Below, in pieces: positions 23,779-34,116 of a stretch of 36,069 nt of DNA; position 1 is the first letter of the stretch; the number at the start of each line of letters is the position of its first letter. Origin of the DNA: a virus; the IMG/VR virus record IMGVR_UViG_3300020156_000458, positions 1 through 36,069 of that record. One strand, given 5' to 3'. The notes below the pieces were generated by a model that saw only the letters and a program-made list of their open reading frames with translations, ran no database searches and was not told the origin of the DNA. The position numbers and the translations under genes were made by a program.

Positions 23779-24360
23779 TCAAGAGGGATTTTTTGGCACA
23801 GCGAGACCAAATGTTGCGGCGTAGCCCGCCAGCACCTTCAACACCGCGTCGCGGGTCCGGTCTTCCCGCACACCCAGAAGCTTGTCCAGCGCGGCCGGTG
23901 ACGCTTCACCGGTCAGCACCTTGACCGTGACCACGTCGAGATAGAGCGCGTCATGCCGGCCGCGCAGCAGCCCCGCCTTGCCGGATGCGCGCACCGCCGC
24001 CCGCCACTCCGCCACCCGTCGCGCCGGAGCCGACACCGCCCACGATACGGTGCCGCCGGACGGAGCCAGCGGCGGGCTGGTGCGGTTGCCGCCGTCGACC
24101 GCCAGCCGCGACGGATCAATCGCCCGCAGCCCCGACGCCGTCCCGATCTCGGTCGCCAACCCACGGCCGATGTCGACGGCAGCAGCGAGCTGCGCCACGT
24201 CCATCCGGCCACGGGCATACATCAGCGCCACCCAACCGCGCCCACACACCAGCCCCGGCACCGCCGGGTCGCCCCGCTCCGGCAGGTCGCGCAGCCGGCC
24301 GGTGATCAGCCCGTCACTGTCGCCTTCACCCCTGCCCGGTATCACCGCTCCGCCATCCAT
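23779..24360 (-). CDS. Unknown protein at the end of the early operon
   Basis: The 193-residue protein is not recognised. It has a Gly/Arg-rich start, a helical stretch around DVAQLAAAVDIGRGLATEIG, and a C-terminal region (about 130-190) with YLDVVTVKVLTGEASPAALDKLLGVREDRTRDAVLKVLAGYA that looks like a small helical DNA-binding fold. The frame is open further upstream through the iteron array, but the ATG at 24360 with a GGGAG element 10 nt away is the plausible start. As the last gene before the late block it could be a late regulator. That is inference from position only. Confidence 0.6.
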   Translation of the reverse strand: MDGGAVIPGRGEGDSDGLITGRLRDLPERGDPAVPGLVCGRGWVALMYARGRMDVAQLAAAVDIGRGLATEIGTASGLRAIDPSRLAVDGGNRTSPPLAPSGGTVSWAVSAPARRVAEWRAAVRASGKAGLLRGRHDALYLDVVTVKVLTGEASPAALDKLLGVREDRTRDAVLKVLAGYAATFGLAVPKNPS

Positions 24361-24368
24361 GCCCGAAT

Positions 24369-24627
24369 GCTCCCTGTTGCTCCCCGCCCGGCGGGAATGC
24401 TCCCTCTCTGAACCCCTTGGAAAATCTCGTTTTAGGGAGGATAGGGAGGATAGGGAGCAATAATCGGAGGTCTGCCATACGCGCCCGCACGCCCCCGCGC
24501 ACACACATATGTGAGACCCCCGAAAATCGCTCCCTATCCTCCCTATGCTCCCTAAACCCAGCATTTCCGCGCCTTTCCCCAAGGTAGCCATGCCCGCGAT
24601 TGCTCCCTCTGGGGTCGATTGCTCCCT
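24369..24627. repeat. Iteron array of GCTCCCT, probable replication origin
   Basis: The 7-mer GCTCCCT occurs six times on the plus strand (from 24369, 24399, 24529, 24547, 24602, 24621) and once on the minus strand (24452-24458). Near copies lie at 24379, 24538, 24434 and 24443. In both central blocks copies follow at exactly 9-bp spacing. The array fills the gap between the D5-type helicase gene and the next gene, the usual place for the origin of phages and plasmids that use such helicases. The last copy begins upstream of the helicase stop by only a few bases. Confidence 0.75.
24431..24556. repeat. 28-bp inverted repeat with one mismatch inside the iteron array
   Basis: The left arm (24431-24458) is three 9-bp units of the form AGGGAGGAT preceded by TTT. 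The right arm (24529-24556) is its reverse complement except at one base (24440). A 70-nt centre separates them and includes an alternating purine-pyrimidine ACACACATATGTG tract. The arms could form a cruciform on DNA or a very long RNA hairpin. Confidence 0.85.
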
Positions 24628-24633
24628 GTCCCG

Positions 24634-26280
24634 TCAGAGTTCGGGGGGCGGGGCATCGACGTTCTGGGGCAGCCCGTCCAGCAGGCACAGCCCCACATAC
24701 TCGTTCACGCCGCAACTCTTGACTGTGCGGAAGCCGCGATCCTTCATTTTTCGCCCGAACCCGTTTTGTTTGAGAGGTTCTTGTGCATTTCTTTCGCACC
24801 ACTTCGTGTAGGCTTCGTACAGCGCCGTAGCCGTGACGCGCCGATCCCGCAGGGCCGCCGTCTCCGCTTCGAGGAAGTCGCCCAGCGGGTCCTGATCGCG
24901 CCGGTACTCTTCGACCGCTGCCATGATCTTCTCGGGCGGGTCCAGGCCCTCTTCCAACCACAGCCACAGCCCATCCAGCAGCCAGTTCAAGACCCCGTCC
25001 TTCTCCGCGACCAGCTTGTCAAGGATGTGCGGGTCGCGCTCATCCGGGGTGATGAAGACTTCGAACGGCACCAGGATCACGCGGCGCCAGATGCCCACGT
25101 CCTGTCCCCGGATGATCGGCCGATGGTTGGTGACCATGATCGGCGTGAACTCCGGCCGGAACTCGAACGGGTCCTTGTTGAGCTTGCGCGTCTCCATCGG
25201 TTCGCCGCCGGTCACCTCTTTGACCAGACCTTCCGACAGGGCCTCACCCTTGTCCGGCTCGTTCATCAGCACCAACCGCACGCCCGGCAGCTTGGCGATG
25301 GAAGGCTTCGGCCCGTCCGCCTTCTTGTCCTTTCCGTCGAGGAAGACGCCCACCGGGATGGTGGCGGCATAGTCCCCGAAAACCTTCCGGATCAGGTCAA
25401 CCAGCTTCGACTTGCCGTTCTTGCCGGTGCCGTAGAAGATGACAAATATCTGTTCAGATGTGTCGCCCGTTAGGCAGTATCCAAGCAGCTTTTGCACGAA
25501 TTTCCTCACATCTTCATCTGGAAGAATGCGCTTGATGAAACGGTCGAACTGCGGCGCACTCGCCTGTGGGTTGAAGGCGGCACCGGCAAGCCGGGTGATC
25601 AGGTTCGCCTTGCGGAAGCCGCCCAGGTGCATCTGGTCACGGCTTTCCGGCTTCTGGCGCAGGTCCAGCGTGCCGTTCTCAGCCGTCAGCAACCAGGGGT
25701 GCGCGTCCATCGCCCGCATCGGCTTCGACAGGTAGGGCTTGGCCTGTTCCAGCGCGCCCTTCACCTTCGGCGTGTCGCCGCTCTTCACGGCGAATTGCTC
25801 GAACGCCTTCAGGCCGCGTTCCCAGTCCTTGATGCGTTCCAGCCGCAGCTTGCCCTGGACATTCGGATCAAGCTCTTCGGTCTCGGTCGGAGGTGCCGGC
25901 GGCGGCCCCAGGTCGCGCAGCTCCTTCACCTCGTCCCGCAGCTTCTCCACCATGCGGTGGCACAGCTTCGTGGCTGCCGCCTCGCCCAGCTCGTAGCCGA
26001 AGCGCTTCCCGTCCCAGACCGCCCAGCCGTTCTGATCGACGAAGACAAGGTCACGGCCGAACCGCTGAATCAGCCGCTCCCCATTGCCCTTGTCAGACTT
26101 ATCGTAAGTTGCAAGCTCTCGGTCAGGCGGCGGTTCACCCTCGTCATCGTCCGGCGGCTGGGCGACGCCACTGCCGCCCGTGCCGGCATCGACCACGACC
26201 GCGCCGTCGATCTGCTGTCGCAGGTCTTCCAGCGTGTCGGGCAGGTCCGCCGGCACGATCTTGGAACCGTCATCGGGCAT
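24634..26280 (-). CDS. D5-type phage replicative helicase (P4 family primase C-terminal type)
   Basis: The 548-residue protein (from the Met at 26280; a Met ten codons earlier is the alternative) has a D5_N region (ENGTLDL, about 200-207), then a superfamily 3 helicase with Walker A GTGKNGKS (284-291), a Walker B-like VLMNEPDKGE (about 347-356) and sensor VTNHRP (about 383-388). The end (487-517) is the D5-type winged helix. It unwinds the origin and drives the fork. The primase half found in fused relatives is absent; that activity lies in the separate prim-pol gene upstream. The gene ends at the iteron array, which it probably recognises. Confidence 0.9.
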   Translation of the reverse strand: MPDDGSKIVPADLPDTLEDLRQQIDGAVVVDAGTGGSGVAQPPDDDEGEPPPDRELATYDKSDKGNGERLIQRFGRDLVFVDQNGWAVWDGKRFGYELGEAAATKLCHRMVEKLRDEVKELRDLGPPPAPPTETEELDPNVQGKLRLERIKDWERGLKAFEQFAVKSGDTPKVKGALEQAKPYLSKPMRAMDAHPWLLTAENGTLDLRQKPESRDQMHLGGFRKANLITRLAGAAFNPQASAPQFDRFIKRILPDEDVRKFVQKLLGYCLTGDTSEQIFVIFYGTGKNGKSKLVDLIRKVFGDYAATIPVGVFLDGKDKKADGPKPSIAKLPGVRLVLMNEPDKGEALSEGLVKEVTGGEPMETRKLNKDPFEFRPEFTPIMVTNHRPIIRGQDVGIWRRVILVPFEVFITPDERDPHILDKLVAEKDGVLNWLLDGLWLWLEEGLDPPEKIMAAVEEYRRDQDPLGDFLEAETAALRDRRVTATALYEAYTKWCERNAQEPLKQNGFGRKMKDRGFRTVKSCGVNEYVGLCLLDGLPQNVDAPPPEL

Positions 26281-26364
26281 CACGCACCTGAAAGCCTCTG
26301 GCACGCCCATCGGGCGCCCAATTTGTGAGGGGGGCGGGGGGAGGCGCGGAGGGGTGCCAGCGGG

Positions 26365-27072: not shown

Positions 27073-27338
27073 GCGGCGGCCCTCGTTCGGTCTTGGTCGA
27101 ATGTCACCGCAAGCTGTTCAGCGGCAGCCACCTGCCGGGCGATGCCGGCGGCGAAGGTCTCGGAGTCGGCGATCAGCACGACCAACAGGTCGAAGGCATC
27201 CGACCACAGGGCGGCGCAGTCGCGACGGCGCTCACGGTGCCCCAGCAGCCGGCGACACCAGCAGTAGACGTCGGGCGCACGGCGTGCGGTCGTGCTCATG
27301 TAGCGGAAGGCCAGCAGGCGCGCGGCGGCGTCATCCAT
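27069..27338 (-). CDS. Small unknown protein between primase and methyltransferase
   Basis: The 89-residue protein is mostly helical, with a CWCRRLLGHRERRRDCA stretch in the middle and a Leu/Ile-rich helix (AFDLLVVLIAD) after it. I do not recognise a family. The Met at 27338 overlaps the primase stop by 8 nt; an earlier Met four codons upstream also exists. Its stop overlaps the methyltransferase start, so the three genes are translated together. The two Cys pairs could bind a metal but the spacing is not a standard zinc motif. Confidence 0.55.
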   Translation of the reverse strand: MDDAAARLLAFRYMSTTARRAPDVYCWCRRLLGHRERRRDCAALWSDAFDLLVVLIADSETFAAGIARQVAAAEQLAVTFDQDRTRAAA

Positions 27339-29043
27339 GGCCGCCCCCATTCCGCGCCCGGCGGGGAGGGAAGCGCACCGTCACCCGGCCATCACCGCCC
27401 AGCGCCCGCGCCACCCGGCCGCGCAGCTCGTCCGACGCGGCGTCCGCGCCGATCACGATCACGTCCCGCACCGTCTCCGGCAGCGCCAGATGCAGCAGCG
27501 CCGACACCGGCCCGCCGATCCACACCGGCACGCCCGGATAGGCGTTGCGGGTCTGAAGCCCGATCACGGCCCCAGTGGTCAGGTGCAGCCGCTCGCCCGA
27601 GACCTTGCCCAGGCGCACCGCCGCGCCCTGCCAAGCGCCGATCAGGCGGCGGGACGGCAGCACCTCCCCTGTGCTGGGATCGGCGATGGTCGCCATCCGG
27701 CCATCCGGCGACAGAAGGGTCGCCAGCACGGCGCGCACCTCCGGCTTGCCGTCCCGGTCAGGCCACCGCGCCATGCCGGCCAGCAGAGCGGGCCACCGGC
27801 CGATGCACACCGGCTCCGCCCCGTCCGGGCCATGCAGGTATTCCACCTCTCCGAAGCCGAACCACGGGCCAGCGGTCGCCGGGTCCACGCCGCTGGCAGC
27901 GAGGAAGGTGGTGGCGGGCGTATCGGTCAGCGATGCGGCGCGGGCATTCCACACCGCCCGGCCGGCGGCCATCTGCACGCCCAGGGCAGCCGGAGACGGG
28001 GCGCCGCCACGGTGCCGGCGCTGGGGCTGATAGCGCCGCTGTTGCCGCTCCGGGCGTTCTGGCACGTCGCGCGGGTGGTTCCGTCCGGCCGCAATGCCGC
28101 CGTCGATGATCTTTTCCAGATGCGCCGGGTCCCACCCGCCTTTGCGCGGGTCGATGCTCCATTGCAGAGCTGCCGCCATCAAATGCTGGCGCACCAAGTC
28201 TTCCGGTAGGGCGTTCGTCGCCACCAGCCCGCCCAGCTTGAAGGCGGCTTCGTTCAGCGCGTTGTTCTGGTTGCCCGGCCCGGTCTGGCGGACGGTCTTC
28301 ACCTCGTCATCAAGCGCGGCGCGGGCATAGGCGGAGATGCGTTCGGTCTTGGTCGAAGGGGCACGTGCGGCAGCCTTCGGCACCGGCTGGCCGATGCGCT
28401 TGGCGAGGAAGGCCGGCAACTCGCGCCCATCGAGGCGCAGGCGCAACCAGTCAAGGTCTTCCGGCTCTCCCATCAGCAGCCGGATCACCCATTCCGGGGC
28501 TGGCACGACGGGGGTGGAGTCTGGGCTGCCGATCCAGGCATATCGCCCGCCGTTCGGATGGATCGACGGGGCGGCGAGGATGTACCCGCCGGTCGACCGG
28601 GTGTCAAGACCCGGCCCCAGGCGCGACCGCGCGCTGTTCTTCACCGGGCGGCCCGGCCAGCGGAACAGCCAGTGCCGCCCGCCGCTGGGGGTGTTCTGCC
28701 CCAGCGTCTGCGGCAGCGGCTCCCCGAACAGCTCTTCCAGGATCTGCAACGTCTCGAAGCCGTTCTCCGCCGGCTTGTCGCCCACCGCGTCCTTGATGTC
28801 GGCGTCCATCACCCAGAAGCCGGACTGTTCGCCAGCAGCCAGCCCGACATTTGCCCGCGGCCAACGGGTCCAATACTGTTTCACCCAATAGGGGGAGGTC
28901 TTGGCGTCATTGACGCCATGTTCGAAGAAGTCCTTTTCCTTGTAGGGCAGCTTGTCCCCGGCCACGCACGGGAACACTGCCCAGCCGCGGGCTGCGTAGG
29001 CCGCCGCCGCCTCGAACAGTTCCGGCCCGGCAACTTCGGTCAT
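27331..29043 (-). CDS. Bifunctional prim-pol with C-terminal Toprim-like region
   Basis: The 570-residue protein starts with a prim-pol (AEP) domain: WAVFPC (21-26), the metal-binding MDAD (79-82), SGGRHWLFRW (120-129) and GGYILAAPS (152-160) are the conserved blocks. A helical linker with NNALNEAAFKLGGLVA (260-275) follows. The C-terminal part (about 400-560) resembles the DUF7146/Toprim fold (DGRMATIADPSTG, then GAWQGAAVRLG and VPVWIGG), but the usual EGIETAL glutamate block reads TTGAVIGL, so that half looks catalytically dead. It makes primers for phage replication together with the D5 helicase. It overlaps the next gene by ATGA. Confidence 0.88.
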   Translation of the reverse strand: MTEVAGPELFEAAAAYAARGWAVFPCVAGDKLPYKEKDFFEHGVNDAKTSPYWVKQYWTRWPRANVGLAAGEQSGFWVMDADIKDAVGDKPAENGFETLQILEELFGEPLPQTLGQNTPSGGRHWLFRWPGRPVKNSARSRLGPGLDTRSTGGYILAAPSIHPNGGRYAWIGSPDSTPVVPAPEWVIRLLMGEPEDLDWLRLRLDGRELPAFLAKRIGQPVPKAAARAPSTKTERISAYARAALDDEVKTVRQTGPGNQNNALNEAAFKLGGLVATNALPEDLVRQHLMAAALQWSIDPRKGGWDPAHLEKIIDGGIAAGRNHPRDVPERPERQQRRYQPQRRHRGGAPSPAALGVQMAAGRAVWNARAASLTDTPATTFLAASGVDPATAGPWFGFGEVEYLHGPDGAEPVCIGRWPALLAGMARWPDRDGKPEVRAVLATLLSPDGRMATIADPSTGEVLPSRRLIGAWQGAAVRLGKVSGERLHLTTGAVIGLQTRNAYPGVPVWIGGPVSALLHLALPETVRDVIVIGADAASDELRGRVARALGGDGRVTVRFPPRRARNGGGHG

Positions 29044-29642
29044 GGCCGGTTACCCTCCGCCCGCTCGCCCGCACGCAGGCGGTAGGACACTGCGGCGATA
29101 CCGAACACGCACCCGCGTACGGCATCGTCCATCGGCTTCGTCGGCTGCCAATCCTCCGGTTCCAGCGGCCACGAGTCGGACGGCTGACCCGGCGGGAAGT
29201 CGTCCCGGCGGTGATAACCGGCATGGGACAGATATTCACCACCGGCCGAGTCCAGCGTGCCGGGCGACAGTTCGTCATCGGCCGCCGCGCCGTCGTCTAC
29301 CGCTTTCTGAGCGGCGGCCAGCTCGCGCACCACGATGGACAGAGCGTTAATGTCGGACCCCGTCAATCCCTCCGGCAGCGTCAGCACCAGGCGGCTCTGC
29401 ACCTTCGGCAGGCCCGGCAGTGACCGGACACCGATCCCCGACACCCAGGTGTGGCCCTGCTGATCCAGCTCGGGCTTATAGCCGTGACGGGACAGGCTCC
29501 GGCCGAAATTGGCCCGCGTCAGGGGGCGCAGACGCTTGCTATTGCAGAAGACGGAGTAGGCGTTGAACAGATCGCGGACACGAACGGAGGCTTCGCGTCC
29601 CTCGCATGCACTGCGGAGGAACGCGTTCAACGTGGCGGGCAT
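29040..29642 (-). CDS. D5-type winged-helix protein in replication operon
   Basis: The N-terminal part (residues 25-55) of this 200-residue protein is a winged-helix module that aligns without gaps to the C-terminal end of the phage D5 helicase: L-x2-AY-x3-C-x6-P-x7-R-x5-G. The rest contains PEGLTGSDINALSIVVREL helix and an acidic, Trp-rich tail. It probably binds DNA, perhaps the origin, and may load or regulate the helicase. An AGGA site 7 nt before the ATG supports the start, and ATGA overlap links it to prim-pol. The functional role is inferred from the shared module. Confidence 0.65.
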   Translation of the reverse strand: MPATLNAFLRSACEGREASVRVRDLFNAYSVFCNSKRLRPLTRANFGRSLSRHGYKPELDQQGHTWVSGIGVRSLPGLPKVQSRLVLTLPEGLTGSDINALSIVVRELAAAQKAVDDGAAADDELSPGTLDSAGGEYLSHAGYHRRDDFPPGQPSDSWPLEPEDWQPTKPMDDAVRGCVFGIAAVSYRLRAGERAEGNRP

Positions 29643-32023: not shown

Positions 32024-33013
32024 TTAAGCTTTAGACACTCCGACGATTTCTGCAACTTTATCCACAAAACACACCGTTCCATCGTCGATGGAATACCGTA
32101 GTAATCGGATTCCTAGTTGATGCAGAACCTCGCGGTCTAACGGTGTGGGGTCGCCGGGTAATACAACAACGAGGACGCCAGGACTGCTAAGTAGGGCTTT
32201 GTAGAAAAATAATTGTCCAATAGCAGTGTATATCGAATATGGCGTTACCTCCGTTTTCACTTCAAACAAACCAATCGCTTTTCCCTCGTCTCCGTAAAAG
32301 AGGTCAGGCCCACGCCGCATCTGGCGTTCATCAGATGGGGAAAGGCCTATTATTGTTAGCTCCTCCGCTAGAGCATTAACAACAACATCGTGAACTGGAT
32401 CGACAGTTCTAGGATCTCTCGCCGGAATTTCATATCTCTTCGGCAATTTGGCTTGAAACAAACTGTGGTTTGTTTTTCCCTCTGCACCCGCTTCAATGTC
32501 TTCCCAATAACGCCTTACGCGGGCGCAAGCTTTAATATAGTCTTCTATATCATCAAGAAAGTTTTCATCATCTAAGCATGCAACTTTGTAGTATTCTCTC
32601 GAAACTTTGCTGCTAAGCTGGACATTTTCTCTCTTTGTCCCAAGGTCAAATGCCCTATCGAACATATCTGTTTTGATCGCCTTAGGTTTAGCTTTTAGGT
32701 ACCCCCAGTGCAGTAACCAGCGTTTAGCGCCATCCTGAACAAGCTGGCCCGTAAAACCTTCGCGAGTCCCAGAAAATGGCATATTGATCTGAACAACACG
32801 TTTAGTAGGCTCATTACCGCGTAGGAGACCGAACTCAAACCAGTGCTTTTCACCATTCTTGTCTGCCCAATAGTCCATCCAGATTCCACGATCTGGTACC
32901 CCAAAACGCCCGCTGCGGCCAAAGCGGAATGCACTTGGAGCGGTGCGGAAAAGGGATTTCAGATCATCAGCGGCCTTAATCAGGCTTCTTTCTGCGCTCA
33001 CGGGCTTCAACAT
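32024..33013 (-). CDS. PD-(D/E)XK nuclease-like cargo protein, possible defence gene
   Basis: The 329-residue protein has a C-terminal region with the PD-(D/E)XK pattern: an upstream helix (HDVVVNALAEELT, 208-220), GPDLFYGD with Asp237, IGLFEVK with Glu251 and Lys253, and a helix with AIGQLFFYKAL (264-274). The N-terminal half (about 25-110) is aromatic and beta-rich and may be a sensor or target domain. It lies between cI and the rightward promoter, is AT-richer than the phage around it, and points opposite to cI. This is the layout of a lysogenic conversion (moron) gene, often superinfection or plasmid defence. No exact family is recognised; activity is inferred. Confidence 0.65.
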   Translation of the reverse strand: MLKPVSAERSLIKAADDLKSLFRTAPSAFRFGRSGRFGVPDRGIWMDYWADKNGEKHWFEFGLLRGNEPTKRVVQINMPFSGTREGFTGQLVQDGAKRWLLHWGYLKAKPKAIKTDMFDRAFDLGTKRENVQLSSKVSREYYKVACLDDENFLDDIEDYIKACARVRRYWEDIEAGAEGKTNHSLFQAKLPKRYEIPARDPRTVDPVHDVVVNALAEELTIIGLSPSDERQMRRGPDLFYGDEGKAIGLFEVKTEVTPYSIYTAIGQLFFYKALLSSPGVLVVVLPGDPTPLDREVLHQLGIRLLRYSIDDGTVCFVDKVAEIVGVSKA

Positions 33014-33630: not shown

Positions 33631-33663
33631 GACCCCCGGTTTTCGGCGAAAGTGCCGGGGGTC
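33631..33663. repeat. GC-rich hairpin between first and second rightward genes
   Basis: GACCCCCGG (33631-33639) and CCGGGGGTC (33655-33663) pair perfectly, and an inner TTTC/GAAA adds 4 bp around a GGC loop. No T tract follows. It could attenuate the rightward transcript before the next gene (33691). Confidence 0.65.
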
Positions 33664-33690
33664 GCTGGGACCATCCCCGAGACATCGACA

Positions 33691-34116
33691 ATGACCGACG
33701 CCACGGTTCCGGTGGACGGCGGAGCTTTGCCCGCCGTGCCCCAGACGCACCACCCCGACTTTGAAGCGATTTACCGCCTGTGGATCGACATCATCCGCGA
33801 GGCGCGCATGCTGGGTGGCCGCGACGCCGCCCGCCGACTGTGGCGGTCTTCGCCCCTGCCGCCGTTGGACGCGCACAGCAAAGGGAAGGACACCCCTGGC
33901 TGGGTCGAGTCCTTCCTCTCCGACAGCACGGAACCGGCTTCTGGTGCCCGCCTGAAGGCGGAGGCGCTGTGGACCGCCTATGTCGCTTGGTGCCAGCCGC
34001 GCGGCCTGGAACCGATCACCCGCGCCGGGCTGATGCGCCAGCTCGCCCGCCATGGCCTGCGGCGCCAGAAGGCAAGCTGCATCTACTTCCTGAACCTGCG
34101 TCTGCGGGTCCAGTGA
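33691..34116 (+). CDS. Free-standing D5-type winged-helix protein
   Basis: The 141-residue protein ends in a winged-helix module (residues 93-123) that aligns without gaps to the end of the phage D5 helicase and to the protein at 29040-29642; the invariant residues are Leu, Ala-Tyr, Cys, Pro, Arg and Gly at fixed spacing. A GW-x-ESFL stretch before it resembles the helicase linker too. The N-terminal half is a helical region with HPDFEAIYRLWIDIIREAR. It may be a DNA-binding regulator. The start at 33691 gives the natural opening, though the ribosome site is poor; a GTG at 33652 lies inside the hairpin. Confidence 0.65.
   Translation: MTDATVPVDGGALPAVPQTHHPDFEAIYRLWIDIIREARMLGGRDAARRLWRSSPLPPLDAHSKGKDTPGWVESFLSDSTEPASGARLKAEALWTAYVAWCQPRGLEPITRAGLMRQLARHGLRRQKASCIYFLNLRLRVQ

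Follow-up and report, generated by a model that had tools for sequence, protein, structure and literature searches.

What is the role of a tight array of short repeats that lies behind a D5-type helicase gene in a phage genome? We addressed this question for IMG/VR virus record IMGVR_UViG_3300020156_000458, of which positions 1 to 36,069 were analysed as a single stretch of 36,069 nucleotides (hereafter the window). The window is a temperate phage carrying a replication module, and its minus strand encodes, in this order, a winged-helix protein, a PrimPol-type primase, an MT-A70 methylase, the D5 helicase, a 273-bp gap that holds the array, a 193-residue protein, an HNH protein and terminase. 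As judged from sequence comparisons, the array is very probably the replication origin of the phage, or else a cis-required helicase-loading site as in crr of P4, read by the adjacent D5/SF3 helicase. An initial annotation had already proposed a candidate replication origin beside this helicase; independent loci now strongly back that proposal, and so do known origins that are placed and arranged alike.

The gap behind the D5/SF3 helicase gene contains ten AGGGAGS sites (S, G or C) within 260 bp. Eleven copies or near copies had been counted there initially; the clustering holds, while the count between 24369 and 24627 is now seven for exact GCTCCCT/AGGGAGC and 12 for AGGGAGC with up to one mismatch. 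When AGGGAG was searched on both strands, 10 of the 14 copies of the 36-kb window fell in one 260-bp span, as compared with a maximum of 4 in any 260 bp in 200 dinucleotide shuffles of the window. The 7-mer shows no enrichment when the entire window is counted (10 observed, 7.1 expected), and the significance of the array therefore rests on its clustering and its geometry. The geometry is that of two blocks of three AGGGAGS copies at exact 9-bp spacing, as first described: a helicase-proximal block (24529..24554, minus strand, with copies at 24529, 24538 and 24547) in the sense of the helicase, and a helicase-distal block (24434..24458, plus strand, with copies at 24434, 24443 and 24452) inverted with respect to it. 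They enclose a 70-bp core (24459..24528), which we analysed for GC content and alternating runs and which is the proposed melting and loading zone. Outlying copies are found on both sides, all on the minus strand and all conserved in the related locus L065 (L numbers designate the loci compared): two exact AGGGAGC at 24602 and 24621 (24602..24627), between the helicase stop and the first block, and three between the second block and the 193-residue gene (24369..24405), exact at 24369 and 24399 and with one mismatch at 24379. The inverted repeat that had been given as 28 bp long does exist, but it is larger: its arms are 61 nt each (24419-24479 and 24508-24568), 82% complementary and separated by a 28-nt centre, so that the whole quasi-palindrome spans 24419..24568 and the iteron blocks are its best-matching part. 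The array was also thought to overlap the 5′ region of the 193-residue gene, and this was not borne out, as the gene starts at 24360, 9 bp past the last iteron. A 270-residue form of this gene, in which the array would be coding, was ruled out by five stops in the relative L066 and one in L065, and the array is thus best read as intergenic.

A scan of viral contigs for TAGGGAGNATAGGGAG reported 60 stretches, and most of those that had an inverted partner block also had an adjoining D5 helicase. With the stricter requirement of the whole layout, a blind pattern scan found 58 viral contigs at a 9-bp step and none at a 10-bp step. The D5 helicase gene ends 32-455 bp upstream of the array in 48 of the 58, the array always lying behind the gene, and further upstream in two (L054 and L103). 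The remaining eight had no helicase match in the stretch examined; at least one of them (L117) is a cut record, and the same contig shows the helicase in L159. Two further observations were made on such loci: in L041 an inverted AGGGAG array lies upstream, not downstream, of the helicase gene, and in L029, L032, L048 and other alphaproteobacterial-type loci a GGGTGCGGGGGATCAAnnnnTTAG-like element, recognized by eye, precedes the first block and might be a priming site or a second binding site.

In a separate survey, D5 helicases were picked by protein similarity only, and 95 that were at most 70% identical were kept. An exact detector, which accepted any 5-mer occurring twice in tandem and twice in inverted tandem up to 600 bp behind the stop codon, reported arrays at 42 of the 95 loci. 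Their period was 9 bp in 29 loci, 10 in seven, 8 in five, 12 in two, and 7 and 11 in one each, where one locus can count at two periods. A mismatch-tolerant detector reported arrays at 50 of the 95 loci, 34 of them with period 9. The exact detector found no arrays in shuffled sequences (20 rounds), and upstream of the helicase it gave one match only, with period 15. Across the 725 kb of surveyed loci the structure is confined almost entirely to one place: in 40 loci it lies 0-250 bp past the end of the helicase gene, upstream there is at most one locus per 250-bp bin, and elsewhere there are nearly none. In L160 and L169 we noted 9-bp inverted arrays at 0.75-1.5 kb behind the helicase, not directly behind it. 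A minority of D5 loci (L151, L163, L175, L320, L342, L343 and others) have a 10-bp step with TGGCGCATAG-like units, and a few an 8- or 12-bp step. The surveyed loci are not fully independent, since their helicases are chained at 45% identity, with 77 of the 95 in one single-linkage cluster; a threshold of 50% identity splits them into 26 clusters, of which 16 include an array and 11 a 9-bp array. The proposition that an absent helicase tail means an absent array had a single case (L155) and was not used as evidence.

The iteron units themselves vary widely across the loci (TAGGGAGGA, TGGACCAAT, GGACGCTAG, ACGTTAGTG, CGTTTGCGT, AGGGTTATG and others), and their similarity climbs with helicase identity (Spearman ~0.3 in unbiased loci). 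The association of the unit with the winged-helix domain and with the AAA+ domain was significant for each when the other was given (permutation p ≤ 0.001). The GC content of the core was under that of its region in 39 of the 42 loci, with a mean difference of 0.11. Named viruses also have 9-bp inverted blocks behind the helicase stop, among them Rhodobacter phage RcapNL (AGGGACG), Paracoccus phage Pthi1 (GGGCCTGAC), Acinetobacter phage 4316 (AGTGACGTT), Bacillus phage phi105 (GTTACTTTT), Mycobacterium phage Milly (GGACAGATT), Microcystis phage Mae-JY02 (GGGAAGATN) and the archaeal Methanoculleus virus L4768; in BPP-1 they lie ~470 bp behind the primase gene. Dinoroseobacter phage R4C (L125) carries, 177-265 bp past the end of the helicase gene, an AGGGAG array whose blocks have the opposite polarity (CTCCCT first) and whose steps mix 8 and 9 bp, and a 12-bp step was seen in A2 and in Staphylococcus phage IME1365. 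Streptomyces phage Rowa and Rhizobium phage RR1-A, read over the same region, had no such blocks.

In cellular genomes, the nearest relatives found are two prophages, one of Azospirillum picis (helicase 95% identical) and one of A. cavernae (84%); a search of 289 genomes from the class to which A. picis belongs found the layout in these two Azospirillum prophages only. L065, the nearest relative among the loci compared, comes from A. picis IMMIB TAR-3. Absence of the repeats from close relatives had been named initially as an observation that would tell against an origin; all four relatives (L065, L066, L084 and L085) retain six units in 9-bp register. In L084 and L085 the units are degenerate and the register is intact.

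The presumed reader of the array is the D5-type SF3/AAA+ helicase (24634..26310, minus strand; 558 residues), our proposed initiator, which ends in a winged-helix domain (approximately residues 466-543). It matches D5_N of Pfam (4e-19) and, over residues 471-524, Pox_D5 (3e-7) as well as an RFX-like family, and it belongs to primase/helicase families of PHROG. Residues 272-547 gave a profile match to PDB entry 7ola, a structure described as a DNA primase; the winged-helix domain searched by itself matched nothing in PDB. The AlphaFold model (pLDDT, the predicted local distance difference test, of 87) has confident helix and strand elements at residues 475-543, and its best Foldseek matches are hexameric and dodecameric D5-like PrimPol chains.

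These data suggest how the array may work. The upstream D5/SF3 helicase would bind the 9-bp-spaced AGGGAG(G/C)AT iterons through its C-terminal winged-helix domain, and each block of two or three iterons would nucleate one helicase ring. The inverted blocks would place two rings, as hexamers, facing each other across the 70-bp core, which they would melt before travelling outwards, with primers provided by the phage PrimPol. At a 9-bp step each site is calculated to be rotated by about -51 degrees from the last, a value close to the 60 degrees that separate neighbours in a hexamer, so that neighbouring subunits could each reach one iteron; the ideal step would be 8.75 bp, or 12.25 bp in the other sense, and 12 bp would be the mirror solution. 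The 8-bp and 10-bp classes indicate that the 9-bp geometry is not absolute. The filament-forming initiator suggested initially finds no support, as the blocks have only 2-3 units and the helicase is found among SF3 proteins that form hexamers or dodecamers. The 9-bp period, remarked on initially as unlike that of many plasmid iterons, proved to be the commonest step in the helicase-adjacent class. A classical plasmid iteron origin (RepA/RepE, with 17-22-bp iterons) was considered and rejected in view of the 9-bp step, the inverted blocks, the D5 helicase as candidate initiator and the lack of a DnaA box in the array; a search for plasmid relatives at the DNA level found none.

Several observations weigh against an origin that is read by the helicase in this manner. 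The core is only slightly lower in GC than the window (60% vs 66%) and it is not AT-rich. Cumulative GC skew has its extremes near 2.0 and 34.6 kb, with no turn at the array, although skew is confounded by transcription and uninformative here. The detectors, which require four near-identical copies, reported no array at about half of the surveyed D5 loci. The winged-helix and AAA+ domains both correlate with the unit and are not separable as its reader. Finally, replication of P4 begins at a separate ori, its helicase-adjacent crr being required only in cis, and the start in the present phage could likewise lie elsewhere. As for the core, it holds on its helicase side an alternating purine-pyrimidine stretch (CACATATGTGTGTGCGCG, minus strand), and long alternating runs (CGCGCGTA-like) are found in 44 related cores together with this one (mean 13.9 nt vs 7.2 in shuffles). 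Such a run is Z-DNA-prone and lies ~20-28% into the core on the helicase side, with a short ACGCATA mirroring it opposite.

The inverted repeat could instead work as a DNA hairpin or cruciform that is recognized by its shape, a stem-loop origin as proposed for pRN1. The 61-nt arms fold very stably as single-stranded DNA (z = -9.8), over 41 loci the complementarity of the inner arms slightly exceeds that of shuffles (11.5 vs 9.5 of 24), and in pRN1 a stem mutation was rescued by restored symmetry (PMC4234260). We nevertheless consider a hairpin unlikely as the main explanation, though it may contribute, as the 9-bp register outlasts both the decay of the units in L084 and L085 and the loss of pairs (20/28 and 21/27 retained in the blocks, 15/24 outside them in L066). 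Retention of the pairs outside the blocks was uneven over the four relatives, at 24/24, 15/24, 20/24 and 17/24. Moreover, nothing in a hairpin calls for an internal 9-bp tandem period, and yet this period prevails among viruses with unrelated units; the outlying single units sit outside the stem; and the pRN1 stem itself consists of two 9-bp-spaced TGTCC units.

The location of the array, directly before the 193-residue gene (23779..24360, minus strand; phrog_21451, unknown function), would also suit a transcriptional operator of that gene, read by a repressor or by the stand-alone winged-helix proteins. The gene adjoins the array in relatives too, where the neighbours of the array in L065, L066, L084 and L085 are 60-90% identical. 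The phage encodes two stand-alone winged-helix proteins of the helicase C-terminal type, one in the replication module (29040..29642, minus strand; blastp E 2e-6 vs the helicase C-terminus), a possible second iteron reader, and one on the integrase side (33652..34116, plus strand; E 3e-9). Still, an operator is quite improbable as the sole explanation: the array tracks the helicase, whereas the downstream neighbour varies between viruses; no promoter-like or terminator-like site was found in the gap; and in P4, Sfi21, A2 and pRN1 a replication element has this layout. A dual role, as origin and operator, is possible. The phage thus has three copies of one DNA-binding domain, which may compete for the iterons. 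Its separate PrimPol-type primase gene (27331..29043, minus strand; Pfam Prim-Pol 4e-38) lies in the same module, and a search of the window for known RNA families found none.

The 9-bp length of the unit might recall a host DnaA-driven origin with DnaA-like 9-mers, which is hardly credible: no DnaA box (TTWTNCACA, up to one mismatch) was found in the array, and the unit sequence differs between phages, in contrast to DnaA boxes, which are constant in sequence. One perfect DnaA-box sequence, TTATCCACA, lies far from the array at 32058-32066 (plus strand), at the end of the gene at 32024-33013, in a scan that overall was at or below chance. Equally negligible are chance or low-complexity repeats and a packaging (cos/pac) site, for which terminase genes ~1-3 kb downstream could speak: the clustering is unmatched in 200 shuffles, and the layout recurs behind the helicases of differently arranged phages, of an archaeal virus and of an archaeal plasmid.

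If the array is a helicase-read origin, the recurrence of its spacing raises the question of a general rule. The 9-bp step could be a structural constant of self-loading D5/SF3 helicases, the ring reading a helical ladder with one site per neighbouring subunit, so that bacterial and archaeal viruses and archaeal plasmids would share the geometry, with unit sequences that drift along with each helicase; we offer this tentatively, as a proposal with slightly less than an even chance of being right. Were it true, it would be a general origin rule and would recast the 'stem-loops' of pRN1 and BPP-1 as inverted iteron pairs. It is the 9-bp rule across D5 viruses, and not the type of origin, that seems to be the new part: no report of a cross-virus 9-bp rule was found in the literature searched, whose coverage left out most subscription papers, including the primary papers on the SaPI, P4, A2 and Sfi21 origins. 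The replication origins of most temperate phages are unmapped, and the rule would predict them in many phages as inverted iteron blocks, usually with a 9-bp step, 0-250 bp behind the stop of the D5 helicase. It would also provide testable predictions on the placement of a self-loading hexameric helicase on duplex DNA, and a means to choose between stem-loop and iteron models for pRN1-like replicons.

Known replication elements offer several counterparts to the array. P4 crr likewise lies ~40 bp behind the alpha primase-helicase gene, and its type 1 repeats, each of 8 bp, include two that begin 9 bp from each other (4314/4323) and inverted ones set 18 bp apart. It differs in its unit (GGTGAACA), in being duplicated as 120-bp repeats and in that a separate ori ~4.5 kb away is also needed. 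The origins of phage-inducible chromosomal islands (PICIs), including the Staphylococcus aureus pathogenicity islands (SaPIs), lie directly 3′ of rep, with two iteron sets around a central region, a layout that the authors believed common to no other bacterial replicon (PMC6092414). Its recurrence in phages conflicts with this view. In comparison with SaPI/PICI, the present array belongs to an ordinary temperate phage, its core is not AT-rich and the PrimPol is separate. Closer in kind are two phage origins with inverted iterons directly behind a D5 primase/helicase: in Streptococcus phage Sfi21 the annotated origin (a 302-bp non-coding phage-inhibitory region) has an 8-bp step, and in Lactobacillus phage A2 the annotated rep_origin behind ORF35 has CGGGAGGAT units, resembling AGGGAGGAT here, with steps of 8 and 12 bp. 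Unlike the present array, both have an AT-rich core and low-GC hosts. In the Sulfolobus plasmid pRN1 the deletion-mapped minimal ori lies behind orf904, a PrimPol/SF3-helicase/winged-helix gene, and has TGTCC twice at 9 bp, inverted; it has two units per block, and its authors read it as a stem-loop (PMC4234260). Binding by the proposed domain has a precedent in Cch2 of the staphylococcal cassette chromosome mec (SCCmec), a D5-family helicase whose C-terminal domain binds short iterons just downstream of its own gene; that putative origin differs in having just one region of direct repeats, 23 bp long and with three AAGTG iterons, and binding survived deletion of its inverted repeats (PMC7581432). 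The present locus has three features of helicase-adjacent SF3/D5 iteron origins, namely a position 3′ of the helicase (stop at 24634, array at 24627-24369), two inverted iteron sets and a C-terminal winged-helix domain. Its assignment to these origins is supported by the sequence comparisons, and we regard it as a variant among them on account of its core, which is not rich in AT and which, in this subgroup, has a long run of alternating purines and pyrimidines.
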